From an uncultured Haliea sp. (GTDB taxonomy: Bacteria > Pseudomonadota > Gammaproteobacteria > Pseudomonadales > Halieaceae), in the NCBI GenBank assembly GCA_913062625.1, contig CAJXWP010000002.1:62001-126000 (forward strand): a DNA stretch of 64,000 bases. Reading direction: 5' to 3'. Below the pieces are notes generated by a model. That model saw only the letters and a program-made list of their open reading frames with translations, did no database searches and had not been told where the DNA came from. The position numbers and the translations under genes were made by a program. Positions 4,285 through 23,378 of this stretch are shown here, piece after piece (positions within the stretch are counted from its first letter, which is position 1; every line of letters begins with the position of its first letter).

Positions 4285-4327
4285 TCCGGCTCGCCAGAAG
4301 GAGCCATTACTTAAGTTATTATAAAAG

Positions 4328-4347
4328 TATAGTTAACTAACTGTATA
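4328..4347. promoter_or_regulatory. Candidate LysR operator in divergent promoter
   Basis: An AT-rich imperfect inverted repeat (TATAGTTAACTAACTGTATA) contains the palindrome AGTTAACT. It lies between the divergent LysR gene and the aminotransferase at 4420, where a LysR site would be expected. Only position and symmetry support it. Confidence 0.35.
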
Positions 4348-4419
4348 TAGAACATAAGAATAATGGCGCCATAATGGGCAGACAATAGCACTGAGACTTC
4401 TCAACGGGGTGGCATCATC

Positions 4420-5757: not shown

Positions 5758-6035
5758 CTGATTTTTCAATTATGAGTCGTCAGAGTCTTATCAATGGCAG
5801 TGCCTTAACACTATGGGGGTATTGTTAGTAATGTTACATAAGTAGAGTATAGAGCAACGTGCTTAAGGAGATCGTAGGCTTCTCGAAATGCAGTCGTGTC
5901 ACATTTCTCAAAAAAAACCTATAGGTACGGTTTTCATGACATACAGCCATTCATTTCTTCGGGCTACTTTTGCGGCGCCTGCTGTCTGGCAATTCGCGTT
6001 GAAAGCCAGGTGATTTTTTGGCGGAGAATCTTTCC

Positions 6036-6911: not shown

Positions 6912-6921
6912 GGAAACCATA

Positions 6922-8406: not shown

Positions 8407-8417
8407 GTTAGATTTTT

Positions 8418-9839
8418 ATGCATAGACATCACGACCCATTAAAAGACGCAGTAGCACGACCGCTCTGGCACGACCCCGAAATCATGCGAGCTCCCGAGCC
8501 TGCATTATCCGGGAGTGCAGATTGTGAGTTGCTGATTGTCGGAGGTGGATATACCGGACTTTGGGCTGCTCTGCAGGCCAAGGAACGCAAGCCCGACATC
8601 GACATTATTGTCATCGAGCAGACTTTTGTCGGAGACGGAGCCTCAGGCCGTAATGGGGGTTTTCTGTCTAGCAGCATTGCTCACGGTGAGACCAATATTG
8701 ATGCCCAGTTTCCCGGAGAGGCAGACAAGCTCGAGCAACTCGGCGAACAGAATATCAAGGAGTTACTGGAAGCCCTGGAACGCTACGACATCGATGCGCA
8801 TTACGAAAAAACCGGAGTGACCAATGTCGCCCTGGACCCGGAGGCAGCTGTCCGCCTGTACGAAGAATTCCTGGTGCGACAAGCAAGCGGTGAGGACGTG
8901 GTGTGGTATGACAAAGAGGGTATGCGCGAGCAGGTCAATTCCCCGAAATTTTATGGTGGCTGCTGGCAGCGCGGACACCAGGACGGTGTTGTTGATCCCA
9001 TGCGCTTATGCCTGGGCTTGAAAAATGTACTGCTCAATCAGCTTGGCGTTCGCATTTTCGAGGGTACTCGCTTGAAAAAGGTTATGCCCGATGGCAAAAC
9101 CAGCATGCGGGCTATTTGTGAGGCTGGTGAGATCCAGAGCGAAAAAGTGCTAATGGCCACCAATGCCTATACCAACCCCTACCGCAAAATTAATCGCGCC
9201 ATCGTGCCGGTTTGGGATTATCAAATCGCGACAGAGCCGTTGACGCCGCAACAGCTTGACCTAATCAACTGGGGTAAAACGGAATCGCGGCATGCTCTGT
9301 CGGATTTCACCAATCTGTTCCATTACTTTCGCCTGACCAGAGATAATCGCATTACCTGGGGTGGCGGCGGGGCGGTTCGCTCGTATTTCAATCGCGGCAT
9401 CGATATAAAGTATATGGACGCGCCAGCACGCTACGCGCAATTGGCCACCGAGTTCTTCCACATGTTTCCGCAACTGGAAGGGAACGTGAAATTCTCCAAT
9501 AAGTGGGGTGGCATTATCGCCTCATCCACCCGCTTTTGTATGGTGCCCGGGGTAGCATATGATGGCCGTCTGGCTTGGTCGGTCGGGTATACCGGCCATG
9601 GTGTCAGCGCTTCGCGGTTTGGTGCACGAATCGGTATTGAGTTGCTAGGGTACAAGCCCTCAGAAGTAATTCGTATGCAGTTTGTCACTAAGAATGCGAC
9701 ACCGTGGCCGCCCGAGCCATTCCGCTGGATAGGCATACGCCTTACTGAGCACGCGTTGGCTAGGGCCGACAGAAACGGCGGCAAACGCGGCTTGTGGTTG
9801 AAGCTTCTGGACATGATGGGCTTCGGTTTTACCTGTTAG
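8418..9839 (+). CDS. FAD-dependent amine oxidase of the DAO family (PuuB/OrdL-like)
   Basis: 473 residues. The Rossmann FAD motif is at about residues 38-47 (LLIVGGGYTGLWAA), followed by SGRNGGF, typical of gamma-glutamylputrescine oxidase and its DAO relatives. C-terminal WGGIIASSTRFCMVPG and YTGHGVSASRFGARIG form the second FAD contact. The enzyme would oxidise a primary or secondary amine to an aldehyde with O2 as acceptor, feeding the aldehyde dehydrogenase just upstream. Its stop overlaps the stop of the convergent SpdH-like gene by 4 bases. The exact amine is not determined. Confidence 0.87.
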   Translation: MHRHHDPLKDAVARPLWHDPEIMRAPEPALSGSADCELLIVGGGYTGLWAALQAKERKPDIDIIVIEQTFVGDGASGRNGGFLSSSIAHGETNIDAQFPGEADKLEQLGEQNIKELLEALERYDIDAHYEKTGVTNVALDPEAAVRLYEEFLVRQASGEDVVWYDKEGMREQVNSPKFYGGCWQRGHQDGVVDPMRLCLGLKNVLLNQLGVRIFEGTRLKKVMPDGKTSMRAICEAGEIQSEKVLMATNAYTNPYRKINRAIVPVWDYQIATEPLTPQQLDLINWGKTESRHALSDFTNLFHYFRLTRDNRITWGGGGAVRSYFNRGIDIKYMDAPARYAQLATEFFHMFPQLEGNVKFSNKWGGIIASSTRFCMVPGVAYDGRLAWSVGYTGHGVSASRFGARIGIELLGYKPSEVIRMQFVTKNATPWPPEPFRWIGIRLTEHALARADRNGGKRGLWLKLLDMMGFGFTC

Positions 9840-11761
9840 GTCTGCTCCTTGACAGCCCGCCACGCAGCATCAAAGGCTGCATCCATCAGCGCAATCGCCT
9901 CGGAATCTGTGTTGGCAATGGAGATACGCCCGAACTGTGCACGGCCAATCTCGTGGGGTGCCTGTCCTTCCTCCCATTTTGGGTCGTCCAGTGCGAGATA
10001 GGGGTAGGAATAGCCGTGGGGAATGCGGTTGACGGTGATGGCCCGAATGTCGCGCTCGTGGTTGAAGCCGTGCTTGCCCAGTAAAGACTGCAATTGCTCG
10101 CGGATATCCTGTTCGTAGCTGGCGAAGGGGGTGGCGTATATTTTGTGACGCCCCATACGCAGCTGGTCGCGCCCTGATCCTTGTTCATCCGATGTAGTTA
10201 TCGTCATTGGCGAGTTCATCATGAACACCACCATCGGGTCATCCGGTCCGCGTGGGGGTTCGTATCCCCCGACCGTCATTGACGGCGCTGTGCTCACCCA
10301 CTGGAACGGATCATAGGGGCACTGGAACATTGTTGCGCCCAATTCGGAGAAGGCACGGCCGTTTTCCAACTGTACGTTGGCATAGACAAAAGGTGTCTTG
10401 ACGCCGTAGCGCAGGCCTTCCTTCTGTCGTTCCGGCATTTCAGGACACAGATGGGGTATGAGGACGTTATAGCAGGCCAGAACGCTGTGATCAGCGGTGA
10501 CACGCAGGGGCTTCCCCTGCTGCACGTAATCGACTTCAACGTGTTTACCGTCGACTTCACGCACGCCAACTACCGTGCTATTGAGCCGAAGCCGAGTTGC
10601 CTGCTCATCTTTGTCCAGTGCGGTGTAATCGAATCGGGCGATGGCGACGTCTTCTGGCCCCTTCATGTCGGGGGCAACACCGGGTATCAGTTTTTGTACC
10701 AGCAACCTGGCCACAGAGGCATTGCCATCTGGGAACATGCGCACCTCCAGAAGGCTTTCCAAAAAAACTTCCCCAACAGAAGCTGCTGCTTTACCCAGCC
10801 AGCCCATCGCTTTAATGCCGCTGGCGCCGTTGCCGACGGCTTCCAGCACTGTGAGGTGCCATCCAGAGAAGCCTGACAAATGGAGGATGATTGCATTCAT
10901 TATCGGCAGGGTGTCCTCATTGAGGCCGACGCGTTCCAGCAGGAATCGGTTGTAGCTGACAGAATTAACGTAGTCCCATTTCTCGCTGAGTGACAGTCCC
11001 TCGAGGAAGTCTCGTTGGCCACCAAAAAAGTCGATTAAAATGTCTTGCTCGCTACTGGGTAGCGGCAAGGCGCGTACTTTTTCCTCGTAACCTTCACCGC
11101 CGTACATGACCGCGTTCCAGTTGCCACCCACTGTCACGTAGCCGTCCGGTCCTGGTATTGCCACGCCATTATCGGCATCGAGCTTGCCTGCCAGCATAAA
11201 GTTGTCCGGTGTATTGATGTCCATCGTCGCAACAAAGTCATCATCGATACCGATGTCGGTCATCAGTCCCCCAGCTGCTTTGCTGAAGCTACTGGGGGTT
11301 TCCAGGTTTTGGGCGCCGCCCAGGCTCAGCATCATTCTGCCGTCCTGGTGAAACTCGTTACGTTTGGCATGGCCACCAAAGTCGTCGTGATTATCGAGCA
11401 GCAGGATGCGGGCCTCGGGGCCCATTTTCTTGCGATAGAAGTAGGCGGCTGCCAGGCCGCTCATGCCGGCACCGACGACGACCAGGTCATAGTGTTCGTC
11501 CAGCGTTTCGTATTGTGACGGCTTTTCTCCGCGCCAGGCCAGGTCGTGGGCCACTTCGAAGGAGCCCACGTGACTGCCCCGCATGCCGGTGAGGGTAGGG
11601 GGGTAATAGGCGGAGGAGTCTGGCGGGCTGAATGCCGTGGGAGTGCCAATTGATATCTTCGCGGCAGGCTCAATGTCGCTGCCGCAAGCGTGCAGCACGA
11701 CGCCAGCCGCGCCTATCGCTATCCCGTTCATGAAATCTCGACGTGTTATCTGTATTGCCAT
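9836..11761 (-). CDS. Tat-exported FAD-dependent spermidine dehydrogenase-like protein (paralogue A)
   Basis: 641 residues from the ATG at 11761. An apparent TTG start 12 bases upstream is rejected because its GGAG is the ribosome site. The N-terminus carries a Tat signal (TRRDFMN) and a hydrophobic run ending in a cysteine (LHACGS), which could be a lipobox. Then come GMRGSHVGSFEVAH, the FAD motif VVGAGMSGLAAAY (about 94-106) and LLDNHDDFGGHAKRNEF, all typical of bacterial spermidine dehydrogenases (SpdH). It would oxidise a polyamine in the periplasm. It is divergent from a TetR gene and very similar in layout to the protein at 15921. Substrate is inferred. Confidence 0.8.
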   Translation of the reverse strand: MAIQITRRDFMNGIAIGAAGVVLHACGSDIEPAAKISIGTPTAFSPPDSSAYYPPTLTGMRGSHVGSFEVAHDLAWRGEKPSQYETLDEHYDLVVVGAGMSGLAAAYFYRKKMGPEARILLLDNHDDFGGHAKRNEFHQDGRMMLSLGGAQNLETPSSFSKAAGGLMTDIGIDDDFVATMDINTPDNFMLAGKLDADNGVAIPGPDGYVTVGGNWNAVMYGGEGYEEKVRALPLPSSEQDILIDFFGGQRDFLEGLSLSEKWDYVNSVSYNRFLLERVGLNEDTLPIMNAIILHLSGFSGWHLTVLEAVGNGASGIKAMGWLGKAAASVGEVFLESLLEVRMFPDGNASVARLLVQKLIPGVAPDMKGPEDVAIARFDYTALDKDEQATRLRLNSTVVGVREVDGKHVEVDYVQQGKPLRVTADHSVLACYNVLIPHLCPEMPERQKEGLRYGVKTPFVYANVQLENGRAFSELGATMFQCPYDPFQWVSTAPSMTVGGYEPPRGPDDPMVVFMMNSPMTITTSDEQGSGRDQLRMGRHKIYATPFASYEQDIREQLQSLLGKHGFNHERDIRAITVNRIPHGYSYPYLALDDPKWEEGQAPHEIGRAQFGRISIANTDSEAIALMDAAFDAAWRAVKEQT

Positions 11762-11780
11762 TGTTGTCTCCAATTACTTT

Positions 11781-11820
11781 ACATGTCAGATGACATGTTC
11801 TAGCATGTCAGTTGACATGT
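11781..11820. promoter_or_regulatory. Twin palindromic TetR operators
   Basis: Two palindromes lie side by side in the divergent promoter: ACATGTCAGATGACATGT (11781-11798, perfect) and GCATGTCAGTTGACATGT (11803-11820, perfect over the inner 16 bases). Their centres are 22 bp apart, about two helical turns, so two dimers would bind the same face. The core is TGTCA-NN-TGACA. The site begins 20 bases upstream of the SpdH-like start and runs to 18 bases before the GTG of the TetR gene, so it should control both. Confidence 0.8.
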
Positions 11821-11838
11821 CAAATTTTGGATGGTCCC

Positions 11839-12411
11839 GTGACGGATAAGCGCAAGCAACAAATTCTACAAGCGGCAATTGAGCTTGTTGCAGATGAGGG
11901 CTATGGAAGCCTGAGTATGCGCGCTCTGGCGCGCGCCAGCGGTATGAAACTGGGTGCGCTGCAATATCACTTCCGTACCTGGGGCGACCTGCTTCGGGCG
12001 CTCGTGGACTATATCGCTGAAGAAATTCGTCAGGCATTCGAATCGCGCAAATTACATGAGGGCTCGCCGAGTGTTGCGGAAATCGCGGCGTTCATGCTCG
12101 ACGATTCCGCCGGCACCGGGGAGGGATTGCTCGGTGACAGGCTTTGGCCACAACTCTGGGCCATGGAACAGGTGGAGCCAGTGGTGTCCGACCTGTTGGA
12201 GGAAGTCTATGCCGAGTATCTGGAAATCCTCGAAAGAGCAATGGAAGCGGCGGGAATCGAGTCACCCCGAGCGGAAGCGCTTTGCCTGATGTCACTGCTG
12301 GAGGGTGAATCACTTTTCACCGGTAAGGGTAGGCGCTGGGAAGGCGACAGAGAAGCCGTGCGCGAAACAATCCTGAAACTTATTAATGAAAGATACGGAG
12401 ACAAAAAGTGA
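11839..12411 (+). CDS. TetR-family transcriptional regulator
   Basis: 190 residues if the GTG at 11839 is used; upstream TTG codons at 11812 and 11827 also fit the frame, but the first lies inside the operator. The N-terminus is a TetR helix-turn-helix: KRKQQILQAAIELVADEGYGSLSMRALARASGMKLGALQYHF in segments, with conserved G and YHF. The C-terminal half is the ligand domain. The twin palindromes just upstream suggest autoregulation and repression of the divergent SpdH-like gene. A membrane-protein gene overlaps its 3' end (GTGA) and is probably co-transcribed. Confidence 0.88.
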   Translation: MTDKRKQQILQAAIELVADEGYGSLSMRALARASGMKLGALQYHFRTWGDLLRALVDYIAEEIRQAFESRKLHEGSPSVAEIAAFMLDDSAGTGEGLLGDRLWPQLWAMEQVEPVVSDLLEEVYAEYLEILERAMEAAGIESPRAEALCLMSLLEGESLFTGKGRRWEGDREAVRETILKLINERYGDKK

Positions 12412-13127
12412 GCACAGCACAAACATTGGACTACCAAATTAATAGACTTGGGTTCTGGTCGGTGATCGTTGCGATTACCACGGGCGTTGTATCCATGTTT
12501 TTCCCACTGGACGCCCCAGGTGGTTACACCGCAGAGCATGTAGATCGTGTGGCCTGGCTGAGTGCTAATAAAGGTGAATTTATCGCCGGCTGGGTGAACC
12601 AGATAGTGGCTATGTTCAGTTTGTCAGCGGCGTTTGCCTGCGGTGCCTGGGTGGTCGCAGGGAAAAACTCGCTCCGTGCCATACTCGCATTGTTGTTCGT
12701 TGCGATGGCTACGATGGCCTTTATTATTCCGAAATTTATAGCAGTATGGACCATACCCCTGCTGGCAGACACCATTACAGCCGGGGCGATGGGTGCAGAG
12801 CTGGCTGACCCTTTGCTCCGCATGCTGAACGTTTCGATTCCCTTTTCCCTGTATACCTCTTTCGATTATCTGGGTTTCTGGTTGTATTCGGTTTTTGCCC
12901 TGTTAGCCGCCGGCCCACTCTACGGTGACAGCAAGAGCGCCAAGATATCGGCTGTTGGCCTGGGTGTGTTCGGTATGGTCTACCAGGTCTTGATGGTCGC
13001 TTTGTTCCTGGGTGCCATAGCACCGGTAGACATTGAAGCTTATTTCATAGGCGCTTCCCTGCTGCTGCTGTTTCATTTGGTTGCCATGGCGTTTGTTTTT
13101 AAAAGATCGATGTCCTCCGCCTCGTGA
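12408..13127 (+). CDS. Polytopic membrane protein, unknown function
   Basis: 239 residues. The GTG start overlaps the TetR stop (GTGA), with GGAG about 9 bases upstream, so translation is coupled. Hydrophobic segments such as FWSVIVAITTGVVSMFF, IVAMFSLSAAFACGAW, AILALLFVAMATMAFII, YLGFWLYSVFALLAAGPL, VFGMVYQVLMVALFLGAI and AYFIGASLLLLFHLVAMAF indicate about six or seven membrane helices. It resembles DUF4386-like proteins in its helix layout, but I cannot assign it. The operon context suggests that the same signal sensed by TetR controls it. Confidence 0.75.
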   Translation: MSTAQTLDYQINRLGFWSVIVAITTGVVSMFFPLDAPGGYTAEHVDRVAWLSANKGEFIAGWVNQIVAMFSLSAAFACGAWVVAGKNSLRAILALLFVAMATMAFIIPKFIAVWTIPLLADTITAGAMGAELADPLLRMLNVSIPFSLYTSFDYLGFWLYSVFALLAAGPLYGDSKSAKISAVGLGVFGMVYQVLMVALFLGAIAPVDIEAYFIGASLLLLFHLVAMAFVFKRSMSSAS

Positions 13128-13290
13128 TTGTCTCGTAGGTGGCAGGGCCGACCTGAAGTGCGCCCAATTCAAGATTTTTGATTCGATGGTTTATAGGCTA
13201 AGTAAAAAGTGGAAAGCTCCGCCTGAATAAAAAGTCACTATAAGAAGCGTAAAAATACATCAATAAGGTAATGCTGTTATGGAGAATAAA

Positions 13291-15432
13291 ATGAAAATAA
13301 TACACAAGTCTTTGCTGGCGGTGGCTGTCTCTGCTTCGCTTGCTCCCGTTTCGGTTTACGCGCAGCTGGAAGAGGTGGTAGTTACCGCACAAAAGCGGGC
13401 GCAGAACCTTCAGGATGTGCCCATCGCGATCAGTGCGATTAATGCAGAAGTACTTGCGGAAACCGGGGCTATCACCATTACCCAGATCATACCCATGGTG
13501 CCCGGTCTAACCGGATCCGATTACGGGCTGGCGACCAATACCTGGGCGATTCGCGGTATCAGCAGCAACGACTGGTCCTTCGGCTCAGAGCCAGCAGTGG
13601 GTGTCTTCTTCGATGACGCCTACGTGGGGCGTAACATTTTCGCTACCGGTACGTTCTTCGACATATCCCGAATTGAAGTGGTCAAAGGTCCGCAGGGAAC
13701 ACTCTTTGGCCGCAACGCCGCTGCCGGGGCCATCAGTCTGATCAGTAACAAACCCGCTGACGAGAACGAGGCAAAACTGGGAATTTCCTTGGGTGACGAG
13801 GGGCAGCAACGGTATGAGGTCGTTGGTAACCTCGCCCTCAGTGATTCATTTGCCGTACGTCTTGCTTACCAACACGACGAGTGGGAGGGGATGTGGGAAG
13901 AAATCAACACGGGTGATGATGCCTATACAAAAAGCGACGCTGTGCGCCTGATGGCGCGCTGGGACGTCAGTGACAACGTGGAAGCCTTATTTCGTGCTAA
14001 CTACGCCAAAGCAGATACGAACTATACGAGTACAGTCAACATCCCATTTAACGTCGCTGATCCCGGCGTTGAGTACCCCGATAAGTATGCACTCAACGAA
14101 GCCAGCTACGAGGAAAATGAGGACTACGGCTTTGGCATGACGCTTAACTGGGAAATTAATGAAGCGTTGACACTGGTCTCCATCACCGATGTTCGCCATG
14201 GTGAGAATATTTTTCGTGGGGACGGTGATGAGACCGCGGACGATGCAGCGGTTGACCTTATTTTGTTCGGGGGGTTTACCGGGGGAATGACCGTCCCTAT
14301 AGATCTCCGCGGTGACGCAGACACCGTTTACCAGGAGTTTCGGCTGAGTGGCGGCTCGGATTCTATCACCTGGTTCGCGGGTATTAGCTACTATTATGAA
14401 GACCTGGACATGCACAAATATAATATTGATTACGTTGATACGGCTTTGGGCCTGGGCACAGTGTTTGTTACCAGGCTCGCTAATCAAGGTGAAAACAACT
14501 CCTATGGCGTTTATGCGGATGCCACCTGGAACGTGACCGAGAAGCTGGCGCTGATCGGCGGCGCGCGCTGGAGCTACGATGACAAGGATTGGTGTACCAA
14601 TACGCTGGAAAATACTGTTCCTCTTTCTCCACCATTCCCTACCGATGGCAATGTATGCACCGATGAGAACTGGGATGAGATTACGCCTCGCCTCATAGCT
14701 CAGTATGACATTGGCGACGATGCGATGATTTTTGGAAGTGTATCAAAAGGCTACAAAGGCGGTGGCTTTAATAATGACGCGGCGGACACCAACGGCGATT
14801 TCATGGGTGACACCGTTTTCTCCTTTGATCCCGAAACCAGCGTCGCCTACGAAGTTGGATTGAAGTCGACCATGCTGGATGGGCAAATGCAGCTCAATGG
14901 TTCAGTGTTCTACAGTGAATACGACGACTTTCAGGTCGCGCGCGAGAGCCTCGAGACCGGTGTGGTTATCTCGAATGCGGGGGATGCGGAGACGATGGGG
15001 CTGGAGGCGGAACTCTCCTATTCGCCCGTGGAGAATCTGGTGCTGATGGCCAACTATGCCTATCTTGATACGGAGTTCAGCCAGGGTTTCCTCGATGGCA
15101 ACGACTTGGCCTATGCGCCTGGAAACACCTTCTCAGTTGGCACTAACTTCAACCACGACTTGCTGGGAGGTAGGCTCAACTGGTTTGTCATCTATAACTA
15201 TACGGATGACTTTTATCATGAGGCCACTAACGTATGGGAGGAAGATGCCTATGGTTTGCTCAACGGCAAAGTAACCTACACGCCGGCCAGCGAACGCTGG
15301 GATTTTGCCGTAGCGGCGGACAATATCACCGATGAGGACTATGCTGCGGCACGGGGAGACATCGGCTTGGGAGAGTCTATCCATTGGGGTTACAAGCGCA
15401 TGGTGAGGGCAGAGTTCAATGTCTACTTCTGA
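13291..15432 (+). CDS. TonB-dependent outer-membrane receptor
   Basis: 713 residues from the ATG at 13291, with GGAG 7 bases upstream; an ATG 12 bases earlier overlaps that site. A Sec signal peptide (MKIIHKSLLAVAVSASLAPVS then YAQ) is followed by the TonB box LEEVVVTAQKR, a plug domain with RIEVVKGPQGTLFGRNAAAGAI, and a beta-barrel ending in an aromatic residue (FNVYF). It imports a substrate larger than porins admit, using TonB energy. Next to a secreted cupin and a Tat-exported amine dehydrogenase, it may import an amine-bearing molecule or polyamine conjugate; iron chelates remain possible. Confidence 0.92.
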   Translation: MKIIHKSLLAVAVSASLAPVSVYAQLEEVVVTAQKRAQNLQDVPIAISAINAEVLAETGAITITQIIPMVPGLTGSDYGLATNTWAIRGISSNDWSFGSEPAVGVFFDDAYVGRNIFATGTFFDISRIEVVKGPQGTLFGRNAAAGAISLISNKPADENEAKLGISLGDEGQQRYEVVGNLALSDSFAVRLAYQHDEWEGMWEEINTGDDAYTKSDAVRLMARWDVSDNVEALFRANYAKADTNYTSTVNIPFNVADPGVEYPDKYALNEASYEENEDYGFGMTLNWEINEALTLVSITDVRHGENIFRGDGDETADDAAVDLILFGGFTGGMTVPIDLRGDADTVYQEFRLSGGSDSITWFAGISYYYEDLDMHKYNIDYVDTALGLGTVFVTRLANQGENNSYGVYADATWNVTEKLALIGGARWSYDDKDWCTNTLENTVPLSPPFPTDGNVCTDENWDEITPRLIAQYDIGDDAMIFGSVSKGYKGGGFNNDAADTNGDFMGDTVFSFDPETSVAYEVGLKSTMLDGQMQLNGSVFYSEYDDFQVARESLETGVVISNAGDAETMGLEAELSYSPVENLVLMANYAYLDTEFSQGFLDGNDLAYAPGNTFSVGTNFNHDLLGGRLNWFVIYNYTDDFYHEATNVWEEDAYGLLNGKVTYTPASERWDFAVAADNITDEDYAAARGDIGLGESIHWGYKRMVRAEFNVYF

Positions 15433-15470
15433 TTGAATGCAAATCAAGACTGTGAGCGGTAGAGACCATT

Positions 15471-15914
15471 ATGAAAAGACTGATATTTGTTGTTTTCTTC
15501 GTTACGGCGCTCGGAAATATGCAAGCTAAAGCTGACGCTGGAGTGCTGTCACTGAATCCGGAGCAAATGCGGGAGCTAGCGCTCGACAGAATTTCGCCCT
15601 GGCCACCCGAAACGGTGATCAAGGGTACGAACGAGCACTGGCAGAAGGAACTGCATCGAGGCGAGGTCACAGTGGCGATTTATGAGTCTATGCCGGCGCT
15701 GATTGATGTCAGTGATCCCTTTCCCTACGACGAATATGTGTTTGTCTTGGAGGGCGAGGTGACGCTGATTTCCCTAGAGGGTGACAAGCAGACTCATCGG
15801 CAGGGGGACAGCTTCCTGGTGCCCAAAGGGTGGCGAGGCACCTGGGACATGCCGGTCAAATACCGCGAGATGATTGTCGTGGAGACCAAGGCCTGGGTGG
15901 CCTCTGGGGAGTAG
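15471..15914 (+). CDS. Secreted cupin-domain protein
   Basis: 147 residues with an N-terminal signal peptide (MKRLIFVVFFVTALGNMQAKA). The rest is a single cupin barrel: PYDEYVFVLEGEVTLISLEGDKQ and GDSFLVPKGWRGTW resemble the DUF861/cupin_3 group. Metal-binding histidines of canonical cupins are mostly absent, so catalysis is doubtful; ligand binding is as likely. It ends 6 bases before the SpdH-like paralogue B and follows the TonB receptor by 38 bases, so the three form one unit and probably act in the periplasm. Confidence 0.78.
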   Translation: MKRLIFVVFFVTALGNMQAKADAGVLSLNPEQMRELALDRISPWPPETVIKGTNEHWQKELHRGEVTVAIYESMPALIDVSDPFPYDEYVFVLEGEVTLISLEGDKQTHRQGDSFLVPKGWRGTWDMPVKYREMIVVETKAWVASGE

Positions 15915-15920
15915 TTCCTG

Positions 15921-17795
15921 ATGAAGAGAACCATTACCCGGCGCGATTTTCTTAATGGTGCTGCACTGTCAGTGGCGGCGATAGCGACGGCACCCTATCG
16001 CTCGCAGCCATTGCACGCGGCTGTTGGTAAGGCGACTGATTACTACCCGCCGCTGCTTAACGGCATGCGTGGTAGCCATAAAGGTTCATTCGAGGTAGCT
16101 CATGCCCTGGTAATGCAGGGGCAGCGCTCCAGCGAATATGAGCGGATAGACGATGAATACGACCTGGTCGTGGTAGGCGGCGGCATCAGCGGGCTGGCCG
16201 CAGCCTATCTGTACAGAAAGCAGATGGGCGCCAACGCCAAAATTCTCGTGCTGGATAACCACGACGACTTTGGTGGTCATGCCAAGCGCAATGAGTTTGA
16301 TGTCGACGGGAAGATGCTGCTCGGTTTTGGCGGCAGCATAAACCTGGAGCAGTCTGCCATGAGTCCGGCTGCATACCAGCTATTGGAAGAGATTGGTGTT
16401 GATTTCAAAGCGCTACAGGATGCCGGCGCGTCGGACTATGCATTGTCTAATGACGAGGCGCCCTTTGGGCTTTACCTGGGCGCAGATCAGTACGGTAAAG
16501 GCCAGATTGTTACAGGCACTTGGAGCAAGGCACTGTCGGGCGCGGGAGAGTACCGCACCACGATCGGATCGCTGAACCTGTCCGCAGATGACAAGGGCAA
16601 ACTGATCAGCCTGATAGCTGGCGAGAAAGACTACCTTGCTGATATACCCCTACAAGATAAAGACCGTTACTTGCGCAACACCAGTTACGCAAGTTTCCTG
16701 CGTGATCGGATCGGGCTTTCCCCTGGCGGCTGCAAGCTCACTGAGCCGTGGGTGAGCGCGATTTATGGCGTTGGCATAGAGAGCGTGTCAATCATGGAAG
16801 CGCTAAGCTTCGGTGCACCGGGCATGAACGCACTGGGGTTGCGAGATTCTTTGACGCAACCCGAAGAAACAGAAGACCCAAACCAGTACCGCTACCCGAT
16901 GTTTCCCGATGGCAATGCTTCAGTGGCCAGGTTGTTGGTGCGCAAACTGATTCCACAGGTGGCGCCGGGTAATAGCATGCAGGATGTGGTTACCGCACGG
17001 TTTGACTATTCACAGCTGGACTGTGAAAGCTCCCCAGTGCGCCTGCGCTTAAATAGCACGGTCGTTAACGTCGCTAATCGAGGCGATGACGCGGTTGATG
17101 TCAGTTACGTTAGTAACGGCAGGGCCATTCAGGTAAGAGGCAAACACTGCATTCTTGCGGGCTATAACGGCATGATTCCACACCTGTGTCCGGAATTGCC
17201 CAAGGCGCAAAAAGAAAATCTGGCGTATGGCGTTAAAGTGCCGTTTATCTGGGCCAATGTCCTGCTGAAAACCGGCGCGGCTGTGCGACAAGGCGGTGTA
17301 TCAGTGTACCAGGCACCCGGCAGTTTTTTCGAGCTAGTTGCGCACGCTCCGCCTGTGGCATTGGGTGGCTATGAGGCGTCTGCTGGGCCAGATGAACCCA
17401 TGCTGATGTTCATGGGGCACATGCCTGCACCAAAAGGTGACGGTAGCCAGACTGCGCGGGATCTGTGTCGCCTCGGTAGACACAGGCTGCTGACGACATC
17501 ATTCTCCGACTATGAACAGGCCATCCGCCAGCAGCTTACCGGTATGTTTAGCGGATACGGTTTTGACGCAGACCGTGATATTCAAGCCATAACCGTGAAC
17601 CGCTGGTCTCATGGGTATGCTTACGAATACATGGAATTGTACGACCCAGACTGGGCCCAGGGGCAGGCGCCCCATGAACTGGGTCGCAAACCGATTGGCC
17701 GCATCAGTATTGCCAACTCCGACTCTGAGGCTTATGCCTATGTGCAGGCAGCAATCGATGCGGCGATTCGAGCAGTAGGTGAAGTGGTGGCATGA
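15921..17795 (+). CDS. Tat-exported FAD-dependent spermidine dehydrogenase-like protein (paralogue B)
   Basis: 624 residues. The Tat signal TITRRDFLNGAALSVAAIA is at the very N-terminus, followed by YYPPLLNGMRGSHKGSFEVAH, the FAD motif VVGGGISGLAAAY (about 83-95) and LDNHDDFGGHAKRNEF. It shares this layout, and the C-terminal APHELGRKPIGRISIANSDSEA, with the gene at 9836; the two are paralogues. The family oxidises spermidine-type amines. Here it sits between a secreted cupin and a membrane protein whose ATG overlaps its stop (ATGA). The membrane protein may take its electrons; this is inference. Confidence 0.8.
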   Translation: MKRTITRRDFLNGAALSVAAIATAPYRSQPLHAAVGKATDYYPPLLNGMRGSHKGSFEVAHALVMQGQRSSEYERIDDEYDLVVVGGGISGLAAAYLYRKQMGANAKILVLDNHDDFGGHAKRNEFDVDGKMLLGFGGSINLEQSAMSPAAYQLLEEIGVDFKALQDAGASDYALSNDEAPFGLYLGADQYGKGQIVTGTWSKALSGAGEYRTTIGSLNLSADDKGKLISLIAGEKDYLADIPLQDKDRYLRNTSYASFLRDRIGLSPGGCKLTEPWVSAIYGVGIESVSIMEALSFGAPGMNALGLRDSLTQPEETEDPNQYRYPMFPDGNASVARLLVRKLIPQVAPGNSMQDVVTARFDYSQLDCESSPVRLRLNSTVVNVANRGDDAVDVSYVSNGRAIQVRGKHCILAGYNGMIPHLCPELPKAQKENLAYGVKVPFIWANVLLKTGAAVRQGGVSVYQAPGSFFELVAHAPPVALGGYEASAGPDEPMLMFMGHMPAPKGDGSQTARDLCRLGRHRLLTTSFSDYEQAIRQQLTGMFSGYGFDADRDIQAITVNRWSHGYAYEYMELYDPDWAQGQAPHELGRKPIGRISIANSDSEAYAYVQAAIDAAIRAVGEVVA

Positions 17796-18481
17796 GCCTA
17801 CTACAGTACAGGGTACTTAACGGGTGGCCGCTTTTTTTCCTGATAGCTGTGTTGACCTTGACCGCTATGATGGCGGGTCTGATTCTAATCGGTGTACAAA
17901 CACCAGAAGCTACGGTAGACCTGATTCGACTCTCTGTGCAGATCGCTTCGCCCTGGATCTTTGTCGCGTTTGTCACTTCACCCCTGGTACAACTTTTCCC
18001 CGGCAGCATGTCGAAATGGCTTGCGCGTAACCGCCGCTACGTCGGGTTATCTTTTGCTGCCGGATTCGGCTGGCAGGCAATTTTCATTGCAGTATTACTG
18101 ACTAAGTATCCATCCTATTACTGGGAGGTTTTACATAACGCGACTGACCTTTCCCTGCGTATTGTTAGCTATATATTTTTACTTGCCTTAACCGTCACTT
18201 CATTTTTTCCGGTGCGCCGAAAGATGCGTCCTGAGCATTGGCGCCGGTTGCACCTGGCGGGTATCTGGTACTTCTGGGCGGCGATCTGGGCGAGCTATGC
18301 CCCCGCAGCTTTGAGCAGCGACGCCAAGGCGATTCACATTGTTTACTTCGTCCTGGGTTTGCTTGTGCTTTTCATTCGCATTGTTGCCTACCAGAGAACT
18401 CGAGCTGGCAAGTCCATTCACAAAACTACCGGCCGCGATCAAAGTCGTGGCTCTGGAAAATGTCAGGAGCATGTACTGTGA
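17792..18481 (+). CDS. Membrane protein, ferric-reductase/MsrQ-like topology
   Basis: 229 residues with about six membrane segments (PLFFLIAVLTLTAMMAGLILI, WIFVAFVTSPLVQLF, YVGLSFAAGFGWQAIFIAVLL, RIVSYIFLLALTVTSFF, WYFWAAIWASYAPAAL, IVYFVLGLLVLFIRIVAY). The RRYVGLSFA and RRKMRPEHWRRLHLAG segments recall MsrQ-like heme membrane proteins, where they flank heme ligands. However, the first expected histidine is not at the usual place. Its ATG overlaps the stop of the SpdH-like gene, and its stop overlaps the GTG of the acyl-CoA ligase. It may be the quinone-linked electron acceptor for the exported flavoprotein. Confidence 0.6.
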   Translation: MSLLQYRVLNGWPLFFLIAVLTLTAMMAGLILIGVQTPEATVDLIRLSVQIASPWIFVAFVTSPLVQLFPGSMSKWLARNRRYVGLSFAAGFGWQAIFIAVLLTKYPSYYWEVLHNATDLSLRIVSYIFLLALTVTSFFPVRRKMRPEHWRRLHLAGIWYFWAAIWASYAPAALSSDAKAIHIVYFVLGLLVLFIRIVAYQRTRAGKSIHKTTGRDQSRGSGKCQEHVL

Positions 18482-20007
18482 TACATTCGATCGGTGAGAT
18501 CCCCGCCGAAGCGGCGAAGCGCTATGGCGACTGCACTGCTCTCGTCTTGCCGGACAGAAAGTTGTCGTTCAGCGAACTGGATGCACTGACTAATCGTTGT
18601 GCCAATGCGCTGGTTAATCTGGGGGTAAAGCCCGGCGATCGGGTGACCCTCTATTCCGGTAACTGCTGGGAGTGGATAGTCAGTTACTACGGTGCGCTCA
18701 AAATCGGCGCGGTGATTAACCCTATCAACGTAATGCTGACCCCGGGTGAAGTAGAATTCGTGGCTAACGACTGCGGCGCCAGTGTGATTATTGCCTCATA
18801 TGAGAAAGCGCTCCCTCTACAGGATGTGAAAGAGAAGTCGAAGGTGAGGGAACTGATTGCCTTTGGCGACGAATCGCTGCCTGAAGGCATGCTGTCTTTT
18901 AATGAATTGCTGGAACGGAGCGATGACTCATTTCAGGCAGGTGAGATCGACTCCGACTCTCTGTCTACCATCGGCTATACCTCGGGCACTACCGGGCATC
19001 CGAAAGGCGCTTGCCTGTCGCACCGCAATATTCTGCTGAATGTAGCCATGACGGCACTGATGCACCAACGGTGCGAGCGAGACATCGTCGTTACCGCATT
19101 ACCCTGTCCCCACGTTTACGGCAACGTAGTGATGAGCGGAGCCATACAGAATGGTATGACCCTGGTGCTGCATCCAGCCTTTGAGGAAAAGGCGATTATG
19201 CAGAGTATCCAGGAGCACAAGGCGACCCTGTTCGAAGGGGTGCCTACCATGTACCTATTTATGCTCAATCACCCGGAGCTCGATAATTACGACCTGTCCT
19301 CATTGCGCTGCTGCACTGTCGGTGGCCAGACTATGCCGGTCCCTAAAATGGAAGAGGTAGAGCAGCGCTTTGGCTGCCCGCTGATTGAGCTGTGGGGCAT
19401 GACTGAAATAGGGGGTTTAGGGACAACCTTTGCTTCCAACGGCCCGATCAAACATGGTTCGATCGGTGTTGCGCTGCCTTACACCGAGGCGAGGATCGCC
19501 GATACTGAGGATGCTGAAAAGACCCTGCCGGCTGGGGAGGTTGGAGAACTGATGATTAGGGGCGGCATTGTCATGCAGGGCTACTACGGCAACGAACAAG
19601 CCACACGCGATACGATCGAGGCCGATGGCTGGCTGCATACCGGAGATGTGGCCTCCATGGATGAAGACGGCTGTGTGTTCATCGTCGATCGCAAGAAAGA
19701 TATGATTCTTACCGCTGGTTTTAACGTGTACCCCGCCGAGATTGAACGGGTCGTGGCCGGCCACCCCGACGTGGCCCTGGTGGCGGTGGGCAGTATTCCC
19801 GATGCAGTGAAGGGGGAGCTGGCCAAGGCCTACATAGTACCGAAAACGGGTGCCGCCCCGGATGCGGATGACATCATGGCCTACTGCCGCGAGCACCTGG
19901 CTGCCTACAAGGTGCCCCGTGCTGTGCAGTTTGTCGAGGACTTACCCAAGACCAGCACCGGTAAGGTGATGCGCCGCGAATTAAAAACACTAGATCACAA
20001 TACTTGA
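18478..20007 (+). CDS. Acyl-CoA synthetase (AMP-forming)
   Basis: 509 residues from a GTG at 18478 with AGGAG 8 bases upstream; the long upstream extension of the open frame lies inside the previous gene. The P-loop-like motif TIGYTSGTTGHPKGACLSH, the adenylate-binding LIELWGMTEIG, GWLHTGDVASMDEDG and the C-terminal lysine region PKTSTGKVMRRELK are all present. It activates a carboxylic acid as its CoA thioester. With an aldehyde dehydrogenase directly after it, it probably acts on the acid left once the amine and aldehyde have been oxidised. Chain specificity is not evident. Confidence 0.9.
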   Translation: MIHSIGEIPAEAAKRYGDCTALVLPDRKLSFSELDALTNRCANALVNLGVKPGDRVTLYSGNCWEWIVSYYGALKIGAVINPINVMLTPGEVEFVANDCGASVIIASYEKALPLQDVKEKSKVRELIAFGDESLPEGMLSFNELLERSDDSFQAGEIDSDSLSTIGYTSGTTGHPKGACLSHRNILLNVAMTALMHQRCERDIVVTALPCPHVYGNVVMSGAIQNGMTLVLHPAFEEKAIMQSIQEHKATLFEGVPTMYLFMLNHPELDNYDLSSLRCCTVGGQTMPVPKMEEVEQRFGCPLIELWGMTEIGGLGTTFASNGPIKHGSIGVALPYTEARIADTEDAEKTLPAGEVGELMIRGGIVMQGYYGNEQATRDTIEADGWLHTGDVASMDEDGCVFIVDRKKDMILTAGFNVYPAEIERVVAGHPDVALVAVGSIPDAVKGELAKAYIVPKTGAAPDADDIMAYCREHLAAYKVPRAVQFVEDLPKTSTGKVMRRELKTLDHNT

Positions 20008-20021
20008 TAAGAGAGATTGAT

Positions 20022-21452
20022 ATGAAAATTGATACCGATTTTGCAATGACCATCAATGGCCAGAGCGTTACCACTGAAAATACTCTGCCGGTTTATAACC
20101 CTGCGACCAGAAGCGAATTTGCTCAGGTTCCCAATGCCTCGAAGGCGCAGCTTAATGAAGCTGTCAGTGCGGCGCGTCAGGCGCAGCGTAGCTGGAAAAC
20201 GACATCGCTTGAGGAGCGCCAGGCGGCGATGGAGCGCTTTGCGGATCTGCTTGAGGAGAATGCGGAGGGCATGATGGCACTCCTCACTCGCGAGCAGGGC
20301 AAGCCTCGGGCAGGCGCTGAGTGGGAGGTGTTTGGCTCGGCGACCTGGTTGCGGGCGGTCGCCACCCAGAGGCTGCCGGATGAAATAGTGGAAGAGACTG
20401 ATGAGCGGCGCGTTGTGACCCGATTTACCCCAGTAGGTGTGGTCGGTGCGATTGTTCCCTGGAACTTTCCCATTCTACTGGCGATTTGGAAGATTGCCCC
20501 TGCGCTCATGGCCGGGTGCACCGTAGTCCTGAAGCCGTCTCCCTATACACCGTTATGTGACCTGAAAATGGTTGAGTTGGCACAGCAGGCGTTTCCCGCG
20601 GGTGTGTTGAGTGCGGTCAGTGGTGGTGATGATCTGGGCAAGTGGATCACAGCTCACCCTGATATCAATAAGGTGGCATTTACCGGATCGACGGAGACAG
20701 GTAGACATGTGATGCGCTCAGCAGCCGATACCATTAAGCGTGTGACGCTAGAACTGGGAGGTAATGATCCCGCCATCGTGCTGCCCGATGTCGACGCCAA
20801 GGCCATTGCCCCCGAATTGTTCTGGGCCGCTTTTCAAAACAACGCCCAATTCTGTAACGTCACCAAGCGCCTGTATGTGCACGAGGACGTCTATGATGAT
20901 GTGCGAGATGCACTGGTCGAATTCATCGACGCCAACATCAAGGTCGGCGACGGTACCGCCGCAGACACGGATCTTGGCCCGATTCAAAACTCCATGCAAT
21001 ACGGCAAGGTCAAAGATTACTTCGCGGACTGCCATGCCAATGGCTATCGGTTTGCCGTTGGTGGAGAAATCGATGAGAACGCGACGGGGTGGTTTGTGCC
21101 GGTATCTCTAGTTGATAACCCGCCGGATGATTCCCGAATTGTGCGGGAAGAGCCCTTCGGCCCGATATTGCCCCTGTTGAAATGGTCAGATGAGGACGAT
21201 GTAATAGCCCGCGCCAATGACACCATCTATGGTCTGGGTGCTTCGGTATGGGGTAAAGACCTCGAAGCGGTTGAGCGCATTGGCAGCCAACTTGAAGCGG
21301 GCACTGTTTGGCTGAATGAGGTGCACCAGTACTCACCCTTTCAGGCCTTTGGTGGCCATAAGCAATCCGGGTTGGGCTGTGAGAACTCCCTGCACGGCTT
21401 GATGGAATACACCAACTGGCAGACGACAACGCTGAACAAGCTGGCAAGCTGA
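20022..21452 (+). CDS. Aldehyde dehydrogenase
   Basis: 476 residues from the ATG at 20022; an in-frame TTG at 20004 overlaps the stop of the ligase and is less likely. The motif VVGAIVPWNFPILLAIWKIAPAL, the base Glu244 in VTLELGGNDP and the nucleophile Cys278 in NNAQFCNVTKR are present, as is EEPFGPILPL. It is the last gene of the run from the TonB receptor through the cupin, exported flavoprotein, membrane protein and ligase. It probably oxidises the aldehyde released by the exported amine dehydrogenase. Confidence 0.9.
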   Translation: MKIDTDFAMTINGQSVTTENTLPVYNPATRSEFAQVPNASKAQLNEAVSAARQAQRSWKTTSLEERQAAMERFADLLEENAEGMMALLTREQGKPRAGAEWEVFGSATWLRAVATQRLPDEIVEETDERRVVTRFTPVGVVGAIVPWNFPILLAIWKIAPALMAGCTVVLKPSPYTPLCDLKMVELAQQAFPAGVLSAVSGGDDLGKWITAHPDINKVAFTGSTETGRHVMRSAADTIKRVTLELGGNDPAIVLPDVDAKAIAPELFWAAFQNNAQFCNVTKRLYVHEDVYDDVRDALVEFIDANIKVGDGTAADTDLGPIQNSMQYGKVKDYFADCHANGYRFAVGGEIDENATGWFVPVSLVDNPPDDSRIVREEPFGPILPLLKWSDEDDVIARANDTIYGLGASVWGKDLEAVERIGSQLEAGTVWLNEVHQYSPFQAFGGHKQSGLGCENSLHGLMEYTNWQTTTLNKLAS

Positions 21453-21616: not shown

Positions 21617-21635
21617 TTTAATAAAGGTGTTTATT

Positions 21636-23378
21636 GTGGAAATTAGATTTCGATCCATTACATTAGCCGCAGCTTTGCTGGTACTGGGAGGGCTGTCGTC
21701 ACCCCTGAGGGCACAGCCAGCCGATTATGTATTCAAAAACGCCAAAGTCTATACATTGAATTCAACGAGCCCCTGGACTGAAGCGGTTGCTGTTCGCGGT
21801 AACAAAATCGCCTATGTGGGTGATAATTCGGGGCTGGCTACCTTGATGTCAGCCAAGACACAGGTGATCGACCTTGAGGGTAGAATGGTCTTGCCCGGGT
21901 TTATTGATACCCACGCGCACCCTGTTTTTGCAGCGGCGGTGGCCCATGGTTTTAGCCTGCCAACAGATGGGGCCATAGAGGACTGGCTCAAAATCATTAA
22001 AGACTATGCGGATGAAAACCCTCAACTTAAAGCGCTCTATGGCCAGGGTTTTTTGGCGGCAACCTTTGGGGTTAATGGTCCAAATAAATCGATGCTGGAT
22101 GAGATTGTTGCCGATAGGCCGGTCGTGCTAATGGATGAAGGTGCACATAGTGCCTGGGTTAACTCAAAGGCTTTCGAATTGGCCGGTATCACCAAAGATT
22201 CCGCTGACCCTGTACCTGGAAAGCATTTTTACAAGCGTGACGCAGAAGGTGAGCTGACCGGCTGGTGCCTGGAAGCCATGACCTTTATGCCCATGATGGA
22301 AAAATTGGGAATACTAAGTGAGAGCACTATTGACGAAGGTGCCGATAAGGTTTTTTCCATGTTTAGTCAATTTGGAATAACCACGATATATGATGCCGGT
22401 TTTTTTCAGTTTGAGCATTTCTCCTATCCCGCTGTGCGTCAATTGGAAAAGAGTGGTCGCTTACCGTTTCGCCTGATCGCTTCAAATATGATCCAGAGCA
22501 CCGCCCATGTTGATTCTGCGATTGAAACCTTAAAAGCCTATCAACAACAGTACAGCTCTGAGCTTATACAGCCTCGCGTGATGAAGATTCATAATGATGG
22601 TACCAAAGAGATCTCTACCGCTGCGCAATTTGAGGACTATGAAAATCAACCCGGCAATAAGGGCAGTGTTTTGCTGGGCGGTGAAAAATTACAGCAATTT
22701 GTTGTCGATATAGATGCCGCAGGTTTTGATGTCCATATTCATGCCATTGGTGATAGGGCGGTTGATGAGGCCTTGGATGCGTTTGAGGCTGTAAGAAAAG
22801 CTAACCCCACCAGTAAGAATCGCTATTCAATTAGTCATACTGAGTTAGTCCGCGATCAGGACTTAAAGCGTCTTGCAGAGCTGAATGTCGTTGCTCAAAC
22901 AACACCCTACTGGTTTGCGACCGATGGTGTTGTCGAGCTTAAATCCGTGGGTGAGTTGCGAGCTGGTAAGCTCTATCGTTTCCGAAAAATCATAGACTCC
23001 GGTGGGCGAGTTACTTTTGGTAGTGATTTTTATGGGCCTATTAGTGGCGATTATTACGGTGTTGCCCCTGTTCTAAATATGGAAATGGGGATGACACGTC
23101 AATATCCGGGTGAAAAATCCATGCCGGTTACACCGCCAGTCAATGCCTTACTGACTTTGGAAGAAATGATTCGCGGTTATACCCTGGATGCAGCTTATCA
23201 GCTGAATATGGAGTCTGAACTCGGCTCAATCGAAGAGGGCAAGCTTGCCGATTTAATTGTTGTCGATAAAAACCTGTTTGCTTTGGATACTTATGATATT
23301 CACAAAGCAAAAGTCGACATGACAATGATGAACGGAAAAATGATCTATCAGCGCCCGCTACTCAAGGAGCAGCTATAG
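21636..23378 (+). CDS. Secreted metal-dependent amidohydrolase (YtcJ-like, Amidohydro_3)
   Basis: 580 residues if the GTG at 21636 is used (AAAGG about 9 bases upstream); a GTG 9 bases earlier is possible. A signal peptide (ITLAAALLVLGGLSSPLRAQ) precedes the enzyme. Metal ligands appear in order: VLPGFIDTHAHP (HxH), HIHAIGDRAVDE, ISHTELVRD and FGSDFYGP; GSIEEGKLADLIVVDKN is the usual C-terminal strand. It would hydrolyse an amide or cyclic imide in the periplasm. The gene lies exactly between two copies of the RAYT-derived element and looks more AT-rich than its surroundings, suggesting acquisition as a block. Confidence 0.88.
   Translation: MEIRFRSITLAAALLVLGGLSSPLRAQPADYVFKNAKVYTLNSTSPWTEAVAVRGNKIAYVGDNSGLATLMSAKTQVIDLEGRMVLPGFIDTHAHPVFAAAVAHGFSLPTDGAIEDWLKIIKDYADENPQLKALYGQGFLAATFGVNGPNKSMLDEIVADRPVVLMDEGAHSAWVNSKAFELAGITKDSADPVPGKHFYKRDAEGELTGWCLEAMTFMPMMEKLGILSESTIDEGADKVFSMFSQFGITTIYDAGFFQFEHFSYPAVRQLEKSGRLPFRLIASNMIQSTAHVDSAIETLKAYQQQYSSELIQPRVMKIHNDGTKEISTAAQFEDYENQPGNKGSVLLGGEKLQQFVVDIDAAGFDVHIHAIGDRAVDEALDAFEAVRKANPTSKNRYSISHTELVRDQDLKRLAELNVVAQTTPYWFATDGVVELKSVGELRAGKLYRFRKIIDSGGRVTFGSDFYGPISGDYYGVAPVLNMEMGMTRQYPGEKSMPVTPPVNALLTLEEMIRGYTLDAAYQLNMESELGSIEEGKLADLIVVDKNLFALDTYDIHKAKVDMTMMNGKMIYQRPLLKEQL

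Follow-up and report, generated by a model that had tools for sequence, protein, structure and literature searches.

Relatives of spermidine dehydrogenase in a conserved gene module of Halieaceae: a possible re-use for periplasmic oxidation of isoprenoid-type alcohols

The gene set described here lies in a window of 64,000 nucleotides, i.e. the whole stretch of DNA that was analysed (contig CAJXWP010000002.1, positions 62,001 to 126,000; G000:C2:62001-126000 in our notation), which derives from a metagenome-assembled genome (MAG) of an uncultured Haliea sp. (G000; 3.07 Mb, 117 contigs, 96.67% complete). In this set, relatives of spermidine dehydrogenase (SpdH) appear to have been re-used to oxidise another molecule, probably hydrophobic and perhaps terpene-like, outside the inner membrane, the product of which would then be burnt as fuel. 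Two such relatives, flavoproteins A (SpdA) and B (SpdB), are encoded together with a TetR-family regulator, an orphan membrane protein (MP124), a TonB-dependent receptor (TBDR), a small cupin, an MsrQ/STEAP-fold membrane protein (MsrQl), an acyl-CoA ligase (ACS) and an aldehyde dehydrogenase (ALDH2) (Table 1). That this module is real and specific is well supported. Its substrate is most likely not a polyamine; as a working hypothesis, the best candidate is an allylic alcohol of isoprenoid type or some hydrophobic compound close to it. The reading that we favour, although we place it somewhat short of an even chance, is the periplasmic oxidation of an isoprenoid-like (allylic) alcohol or near relative, a substrate that we infer, by way of an aldehyde and an acid to a CoA thioester.

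Relationship to spermidine dehydrogenase and predicted export

Both A and B matched the SpdH of Pseudomonas aeruginosa (PaSpdH, PDB 7d9f/7d9i) in full length, with E-values of 2e-119 and 4e-142, respectively, and shared 46% identity with each other. The heme-b ligands of PaSpdH, given as His54 and His562 in the accessible part of PMC12564564, are retained as histidines in all 109 aligned family members, A and B included, with His76 and His586 as their counterparts in A. A twin-arginine (Tat) signal was detected in B by the NCBIfam model TIGR01409 (22.1 bits, cut-off 16.7), the Tat-type motif RRDFMNG was read by eye in A, and RRDF is common to both. With homology, heme ligands and Tat-type N-terminus all in agreement, A and B are, as judged from their sequences, members of the SpdH-type flavoheme fold family. 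An initial annotation of this DNA had described two Tat-exported SpdH-like flavoproteins with a TonB receptor, cupin, membrane protein, ligase and aldehyde dehydrogenase, and all these genes were recovered at the same coordinates and on the same strands, both flavoproteins being full-length and of SpdH type.

Sequences under 540 aa and those with identical C-termini were dropped before the family tree was counted. Among the 109 remaining SpdH-family proteins, those of A type (29), B type (24) and C type (4) formed, together with two singletons, one clade of 59 with a local support of 1.0, from which the true-SpdH clade of 10, including PaSpdH, stood apart; a repetition with 93 sequences placed 54 of them in the A/B/C clade, again with support 1.0. 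In A, the Tat signal precedes a lipobox-like LHAC. A lipobox follows the Tat motif in 15 of the 23 A-clade members with RRxF (29 A-clade members in total) and in none of the Tat-motif members of the B (0/23), C (0/4) or true SpdH (0/10) groups. Because of this difference between A and B (15/23 vs 0/23), A is predicted to be probably a lipid-anchored Tat lipoprotein and B probably a soluble protein.

On one side of the residue comparison stood 34 sequences, from the true-SpdH clade together with the large clade nearest to it (Pseudomonadales), and on the other 57 sequences of types A, B and C; 11 ‘rest’ and seven ‘sib’ rows belonged to neither side. D475, W451 and H327 (PaSpdH numbering) were each present in 34/34 vs 0/57, and Y324 in 33/34 vs 2/57; it should be added that the small sister clade ‘sib’ (7) likewise has no D475, W451 or H327, and the loss is therefore not unique to A/B/C. 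The A/B/C proteins thus neither group with true SpdH nor hold the three residues invariant there, and from the alignments A and B are likely not spermidine dehydrogenases in the strict sense. The initial annotation had made its view dependent on the flavoproteins not grouping away from amine dehydrogenases; this is partly contradicted, as A and B stay within the SpdH fold family and yet branch in a separate clade from true SpdH, with SpdH residues lost.

Two further positions are those that the depositors of the structures chose to mutate, since the PDB alignments show Ala at 282 in 7d9i where 7d9f has Asp, and Ala at 443 in 7d9j where the others have Tyr. Position 282 is Asp or Glu in eight of the 10 true SpdH rows (the remaining two include 7d9i, itself the D282A mutant) and acidic in no A, B or C row, where it is His or Ile in 26/29 A and Ala in 18/24 B. 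Tyr443 is retained in 28/29 A and in no B, and the A type shows swaps of W560 to Ile (28/29) and of Y604 to Leu (21/29). Y564, presumably the monoamine oxidase (MAO)-type cage tyrosine, is kept in 108/109; the alignment of these positions with the MAO cage is by motif rather than by structure.

Conservation and spread of the module

Conservation of gene order, the check set beforehand by the initial annotation, was borne out in further genera of the Halieaceae, in other families of the Pseudomonadales and in two marine MAGs whose labels place them in other phyla. The block of A, divergent from TetR, followed by MP124, TonB receptor, cupin and B recurs in relatives, with the order of MsrQl, ACS and ALDH2 varying. 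It was found in G027, G475, G032, G036, G028 and further genomes of genus g12, and also in Halieaceae SI047_bin19, gammaproteobacterium NP21 and UWMA-0291; a looser form occurs in other Pseudomonadales families (L039, L159-L161) and in the MAGs labelled Spirochaeta MED672 and Deltaproteobacteria MED660. Across the core loci, identities were 79-91% for ACS and ALDH2 and 56-78% for B. SpdH-family genes are present in 69 of the 140 genomes of the family; outside it the fold is rare, with matches at E <= 1e-60 in two of 369 genomes of the class sample, including the genome of the window. Within the window's genus only two of 18 genomes (G000 and G003 among G000-G017) have SpdH, and this patchiness therefore points to horizontal spread of the module.

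Partners of the SpdH genes were tallied within 8 kb, with identity floors of 45% for ACS, ALDH2, ALDH3 (a second aldehyde dehydrogenase, see Table 1) and TBDR, and of 30% for polyamine genes; loci under 8 kb were dropped, so that the window's own A and B are not counted. MP124 accompanied 45/54 genes of the A/B/C clade vs 0/38 other SpdH genes, TetR 35/54 vs 0/38, ALDH2 28/54 vs 0/38 and ACS 21/54 vs 0/38. PuuB-, aminotransferase- or glutamine synthetase-like genes were near three of the 54 clade genes, and a c-type cytochrome of the panel was near three of the 38 SpdH genes outside the clade and none within it. In L156 and L171 the gene after SpdH encodes a c-type cytochrome of some 400 aa, which is likely the electron acceptor of true SpdH.

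Other surroundings of SpdH genes were also seen. In L046, L048, L081, L083 and L167 a TPR-sulfotransferase lies beside or near a TonB receptor and SpdH genes outside the A/B/C clade, with NhaC-type antiporters in L046 and L083. On the Sphingobium Tom plasmids (L153, L154), a gene annotated as spdH stands beside a TonB receptor, a SnoaL-like protein, an amidohydrolase and an acyl-CoA synthetase. These plasmids had suggested tomatidine or steroid alkaloids as substrates, a candidate that was rejected: the Tom-plasmid SpdH is only 37-38% identical and has other neighbours, and the accessible part of the tomatine paper (PMC10653915) names neither spermidine nor TonB. Long-chain polyamines and phenolamides were dropped as substrates for want of gene evidence, and the literature search, including the marine polyamine context, returned no work joining spermidine dehydrogenase with TonB.

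Putative operator and regulation

The 38-bp gap between A and TetR and the first bases of the TetR gene carry two copies of the palindrome ATGTCANNTGACAT, 22 bp apart, of which the second overlaps the TTG start called for TetR; the true start may lie further in. With 2.27 matches of such a 14-mer expected in the window when two mismatches are allowed, only the exact tandem pair is meaningful, and a control pattern gave 0 matches in the whole genome. The palindrome recurs in 25 of the 205 loci compared, some of these being overlapping copies of one site. Exact copies lie beside A, TetR or MP124 in G027, G475, G484/L053, L054, L056, L057, L058, G486, G489 and G500, as well as before TonB receptors (L039, L057, L131, L132) and before other genes. 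Other perfect sites in the window's own genome, one inside an SDR gene (C9) and one inside a DUF6607 frame, near its 5' end (C24), named no pathway. From this sequence pattern, the module is predicted to be TetR-regulated through a conserved putative palindromic operator.

On a 5.8 kb contig of the same MAG (L051; G000:C106:1-5814), a further gene of A type, TetR and MP124 show this divergent arrangement again, at 79-83% identity and with near-exact operator copies; the contig represents either a second block or stray DNA from a related strain.

Alcohol-related partners in relatives

In G027 the operator precedes a gene of the linalool dehydratase/isomerase family (Ldi; PF18566, E 5e-80), followed by DsbA. 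The encoded protein matched LDI structures with E 2e-15, its NIMYxGHL and CE..C regions align with LDI of Castellaniella defragrans, the histidine and cysteine motifs being presumably catalytic, and a signal peptide was read by eye. The operator stands 60-74 bp upstream of Ldi in all three Ldi genes of the family whose upstream DNA is on the contig; Ldi and SpdH genes thus share an operator, in relatives only. Ldi occurs in four of the 140 family genomes, each of which also belongs to the 22 MP124-bearing ones (under independence this would have a probability of 5e-4, but related genomes are not independent), and in L057 (MED660) the Ldi-DsbA pair adjoins the A/B block.

Furthermore, the Ldi-DsbA pair of G027 adjoins a run of TetR, cupin, SpdA, cupin, a pyrroloquinoline quinone (PQQ)-cytochrome c dehydrogenase, ALDH3, MP124 and TonB receptor. 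The same type of dehydrogenase accompanies ALDH3, MP124, TetR, SpdA and TonB receptor in L036, and MsrQl and MP124 in L133; in G487/L223 a PQQ dehydrogenase takes the place of B and is followed by an ACS 80% identical to that of the window. An isoprenoid-type alcohol is favoured because the operator of relatives precedes the gene of a signal-peptide-bearing Ldi-family protein and because PQQ alcohol dehydrogenases occur there together with the same ACS and ALDH.

C-type SpdH genes adjoin a P450 (nearest PDB entries CYP101D1 and P450cam) and a SnoaL-like protein. The window has a P450 of its own (57815-59023), closest in the PDB to CYP101D/P450cam and 40% identical to the one associated with the C type, and its FAS1-like dehydratase (56315) has a counterpart with 38% identity close to Ldi in L131.

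Membrane proteins of the module

MP124 had no Pfam or NCBIfam family above cut-off, and its AlphaFold2 model (pLDDT 92) gave no PDB fold match with E <= 0.001. MP124 occupies 30 places in the 140 family genomes, and 27 of these have an SpdH-family gene no more than 5 kb away (distances for MP124 and MsrQl use only SpdH matches with E <= 1e-60); two of the three exceptions have no SpdH match on the contig and one lies 42 kb away.

The model of MsrQl (pLDDT 90) matched STEAP4, STEAP1 and NOX5 in Foldseek with probability 1.00, TMq 0.51-0.60 and E 0.01-0.13, so that the protein is predicted to have a ferric-reductase-like transmembrane fold resembling STEAP/NOX. The MsrQ model of NCBIfam scored only 20.2 and 19.3 bits against a cut-off of 130. 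In the SpdH-associated forms the histidine of transmembrane helix 3 (TM3) is replaced by Trp-Gln and that of TM5 is kept in 35/38, both being positions which we take to be heme ligands in MsrQ. The designation ‘heme-type’ of the initial annotation thus holds weakly, at the level of the modelled fold, and MsrQl as a proven heme protein was rejected owing to the lost TM3 ligand. Of the 47 places in the family that hold MsrQl genes, close and distant ones together, 27 have an SpdH gene no more than 5 kb away, where chance would give roughly 0.8% per place, and MsrQl is therefore a good candidate electron partner of SpdH-type enzymes; it also adjoins SpdH genes outside the A/B/C clade. No MsrQl gene stands beside B in the B blocks of L053, L054 and L038, and therefore MsrQl is not the sole acceptor. 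Away from SpdH, an MsrQ-like domain was seen in a 536-aa open reading frame of L070 (10757-12367), possibly a fusion.

Gene organisation of the window

The cluster extends beyond the set of the initial annotation, as the TetR and MP124 genes belong to it. The Amidohydrolase_3 and ALDH3 genes are probably part of it as well, because their orthologues sit within the block in relatives: those of the amidohydrolase (75-76% identical) between SpdA and TetR in L053 and L054, those of ALDH3 (79-83%) inside the block in L033, L034, L036 and L115. The tight packing with ATGA/GTGA overlaps reported earlier was confirmed by direct reading of the junctions, with GTGA at 12408-12411 and 18478-18481, ATGA at 17792-17795, and six bases between cupin and B.

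Table 1. Features of the module in the window (window coordinates)
Feature	Coordinates	Strand	Description
Flavoprotein A (SpdA)	9836..11773	-	645 aa; SpdH-family dehydrogenase, FAD and predicted heme b
Operator palindrome, copy 1	11783..11796		ATGTCANNTGACAT, exact match
Operator palindrome, copy 2	11805..11818		22 bp downstream of copy 1
TetR-family regulator	11812..12411	+	divergent from A; PF00440 E 4.5e-10
MP124	12408..13127	+	orphan multi-helix membrane protein, 239 aa; module marker
TonB-dependent receptor	13279..15432	+	PF00593 E 2e-44; PF07715 E 6.5e-16
Small EutQ-like cupin	15471..15914	+	PF05899 (Cupin_3) E 1e-9; PDB 3bcw E 7e-7; signal peptide by eye
Flavoprotein B (SpdB)	15921..17795	+	624 aa; predicted Tat-exported, probably soluble, FAD and predicted heme b
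MsrQl	17792..18481	+	MsrQ/STEAP-fold membrane protein (predicted), candidate electron partner
Acyl-CoA ligase ACS	18478..20007	+	PF00501 E 4.6e-93; PRK06187 477.9 bits (cut-off 476)
Aldehyde dehydrogenase ALDH2	20022..21452	+	PF00171 E 3e-149; alternative start TTG 20004
Amidohydrolase_3 protein	21627..23378	+	PF07969 E 1.3e-79
ALDH3	25113..26540	+	match below cut-off to benzaldehyde dehydrogenase MdlD

Just upstream of A, positions 1-9839 hold genes of polyamine type (glutamine-synthetase-like, two aminotransferases, an aldehyde dehydrogenase and a PuuB-like oxidase), accompanied by LuxR and LysR regulators; the PuuB-like gene is convergent with A, which ends four bases inside its end. At the other side, positions 28196-64000 form a large acyl-CoA catabolic island with a fused acyl-CoA dehydrogenase, a thiolase-enoyl-CoA hydratase fusion, a Baeyer-Villiger monooxygenase-like enzyme, BKACE, an AveC-like protein, the CYP101-like P450 and the FAS1-like dehydratase.

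Proposed pathway and alternative explanations

In the pathway that we favour, a hydrophobic substrate would enter through the TonB receptor and would be oxidised to an aldehyde in the periplasm by soluble B and lipid-anchored A, between which the work may be divided as two substrates, two steps or two stereoisomers. Electrons would pass from FAD to the surface heme b and on to the membrane, i.e. to MsrQl where present and otherwise to another acceptor, and finally to quinone. The product would enter the cytoplasm, perhaps helped by MP124, where it would be converted by ALDH2 to the acid and then by ACS to a CoA thioester that feeds beta-oxidation. Much of this scheme was anticipated by the initial annotation, whose periplasmic location, TonB uptake, electron hand-off via the membrane protein and cytoplasmic CoA activation are plausible. 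The amine that it proposed as substrate is now doubtful, in view of relatives that pair the same regulator site, MP124, aldehyde dehydrogenase and ligase with PQQ alcohol dehydrogenases and an Ldi-family enzyme.

A number of observations weigh against an isoprenoid alcohol. The Ldi gene is absent from the window's genome (0 matches in the MAG of 96.67% completeness), and the window's block has no PQQ dehydrogenase. A converges with the PuuB-like gene beside the polyamine-type genes of 1-9839, and in L058 A again lies beside PuuB; amide-processing genes in or near the module (Amidohydrolase_3 in L053 and L054, an amidase in L223) would fit an N-containing substrate; and the nearest NCBIfam models of ALDH2, all below cut-off, include aminobutyraldehyde dehydrogenase. 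PF18566 is a broad family, with distant members (31-32%) in two genomes of the order that have no listed SpdH match. Moreover, all that is known of D282 and Y443 is that deposited chains carry mutations there, the lost residues are placed by alignment only, and genes may come together in catabolic islands for general, not specific, reasons.

Several of these points are shared by the main rival, which is close to the view of the initial annotation and which we regard as somewhat unlikely. Here A and B would be dehydrogenases for a non-spermidine amine, such as a secondary or tertiary amine of hydrophobic character or a naturally occurring conjugate of a polyamine, and periplasmic C-N oxidation would yield an aldehyde for conversion by ALDH2 and ACS to a CoA thioester. 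The convergence with PuuB near aminotransferase and glutamine-synthetase-like genes, its recurrence in L058 and the amidase or amidohydrolase neighbours would all suit an amine, as would the kept Y564, given its presumed cage role, and characterised members of the fold family seen here do oxidise amines. However, the losses of D475, W451, H327 and Y324, the few clade genes with polyamine-type neighbours (3/54) and the occurrence alongside PQQ alcohol dehydrogenases, Ldi and CYP101-like P450 argue against it. Least probable, in our view, is that A is the ordinary spermidine dehydrogenase of the polyamine genes that fill 1-9839 and that only B serves another pathway: the four-base convergent overlap with the PuuB-like gene and the retained Y443 of A (28/29) speak for this, but A accompanies TetR, MP124 and B in loci without such polyamine genes, has D475 in 0/29, Leu for Y604 in 21/29 and Ile for W560 in 28/29, and groups with B instead of SpdH.

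Only slightly better, and still quite improbable, is a general catabolic island in which SpdA, SpdB, PQQ dehydrogenases, Ldi, P450 and ligases belong to separate pathways, so that neighbours would be uninformative on the substrate of SpdA and SpdB. G027, with five SpdH genes, many ligases and acyl-CoA genes over about 130 kb, is consistent with such an arrangement, and sister genomes mix the parts in differing orders; it should be added that relatives (46-75%) of eight window genes from 28-61 kb share the G027 stretch with its five SpdH genes. Against it stand the shared operator and TetR, the overlapping genes, the clade-specific partner MP124 (45/54 vs 0/38) and the recurrence of the same set in MAGs labelled as other phyla.

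Significance and comparison with known systems

Extending the isoprenoid alcohol reading to the whole A/B/C branch is possible, although more tentative than the reading itself. This branch of the SpdH fold would have left amines, and its Tat-exported flavoheme-b dehydrogenases would oxidise isoprenoid alcohols (e.g. of linalool/geraniol or phytol/isophytol type) in the periplasm of marine bacteria, interchangeably with PQQ alcohol dehydrogenases, wired to quinone via an MsrQ/STEAP-fold protein and placed in one TetR/palindrome regulon with a periplasmic linalool-isomerase-like enzyme. In databases such genes carry the label ‘spermidine dehydrogenase’, as on the Sphingobium Tom plasmids, and if the branch does something else, counts of spdH as a proxy of marine polyamine use would mislead, with SpdH-family genes in about half of the family's genomes (69/140). 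A periplasmic alcohol or terpenoid dehydrogenase with a surface heme b would be new and of interest for electrode biocatalysis, in which PaSpdH has already been used according to the accessible part of PMC12564564. The conserved operator offers a direct handle on the inducer and hence the substrate.

Among known systems, SpdH of P. aeruginosa (PDB 7d9f-7d9j) resembles A and B in its full-length fold, FAD domain, both heme-b histidines and Tat-type N-terminus; unlike it, A and B form a separate clade, have lost conserved SpdH residues and, in the A type, often bear a lipobox (0/10 in true SpdH). Their partners are TetR, MP124, ALDH2 and ACS, whereas a c-type cytochrome gene adjoins SpdH in some loci of true-SpdH type. 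MsrQl shares its predicted ferric-reductase-like transmembrane fold with MsrQ, the subunit of MsrPQ that binds heme, and with STEAP/NOX; it differs from MsrQ in falling below the model cut-off and in the TM3 change from His to Trp-Gln.

The initial annotation knew of no described pathway with this set of genes, which needs qualifying, as the succession of dehydrogenase, aldehyde dehydrogenase and CoA ligase has precedents in the polyethylene glycol (PEG) route of sphingomonads and the geraniol branch (GeoA/GeoB/GeoC) of Castellaniella. The PEG operon includes a TonB receptor and is not known to contain an MsrQ-like or cupin gene. PegA is a GMC-type flavoenzyme and not SpdH-like, and no GMC model was among the Pfam and NCBIfam matches of A and B. 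The available parts of PMC7299911 and PMC6987047 describe PEG dehydrogenase (PegA), aldehyde dehydrogenase (PegC) and acyl-CoA synthetase acting on a large molecule, a combination like that of the module. Limonene dehydrogenase CtmAB likewise consists of FAD enzymes acting on a terpene, as proposed for A and B; it is described as phytoene-dehydrogenase-like (COG1233) and clustered with a ferredoxin, and would in this differ from A and B.

A parallel in logic is the monoterpene route of C. defragrans, which in the accessible part of PMC4109377 comprises LDI, GeoA, GeoB and GeoC, i.e. isomerase, alcohol dehydrogenase, aldehyde dehydrogenase and CoA ligase, GeoA being NAD-dependent. Relatives of the window have an Ldi-family gene under the module operator; the window's genome has no Ldi, and the presumed alcohol step would, unlike in C. 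defragrans, be taken by a Tat-exported flavoheme or PQQ enzyme. On this view the module would run the same scheme as C. defragrans, except that an SpdH adapted to a new use would oxidise the alcohol, and would do so in the periplasm.

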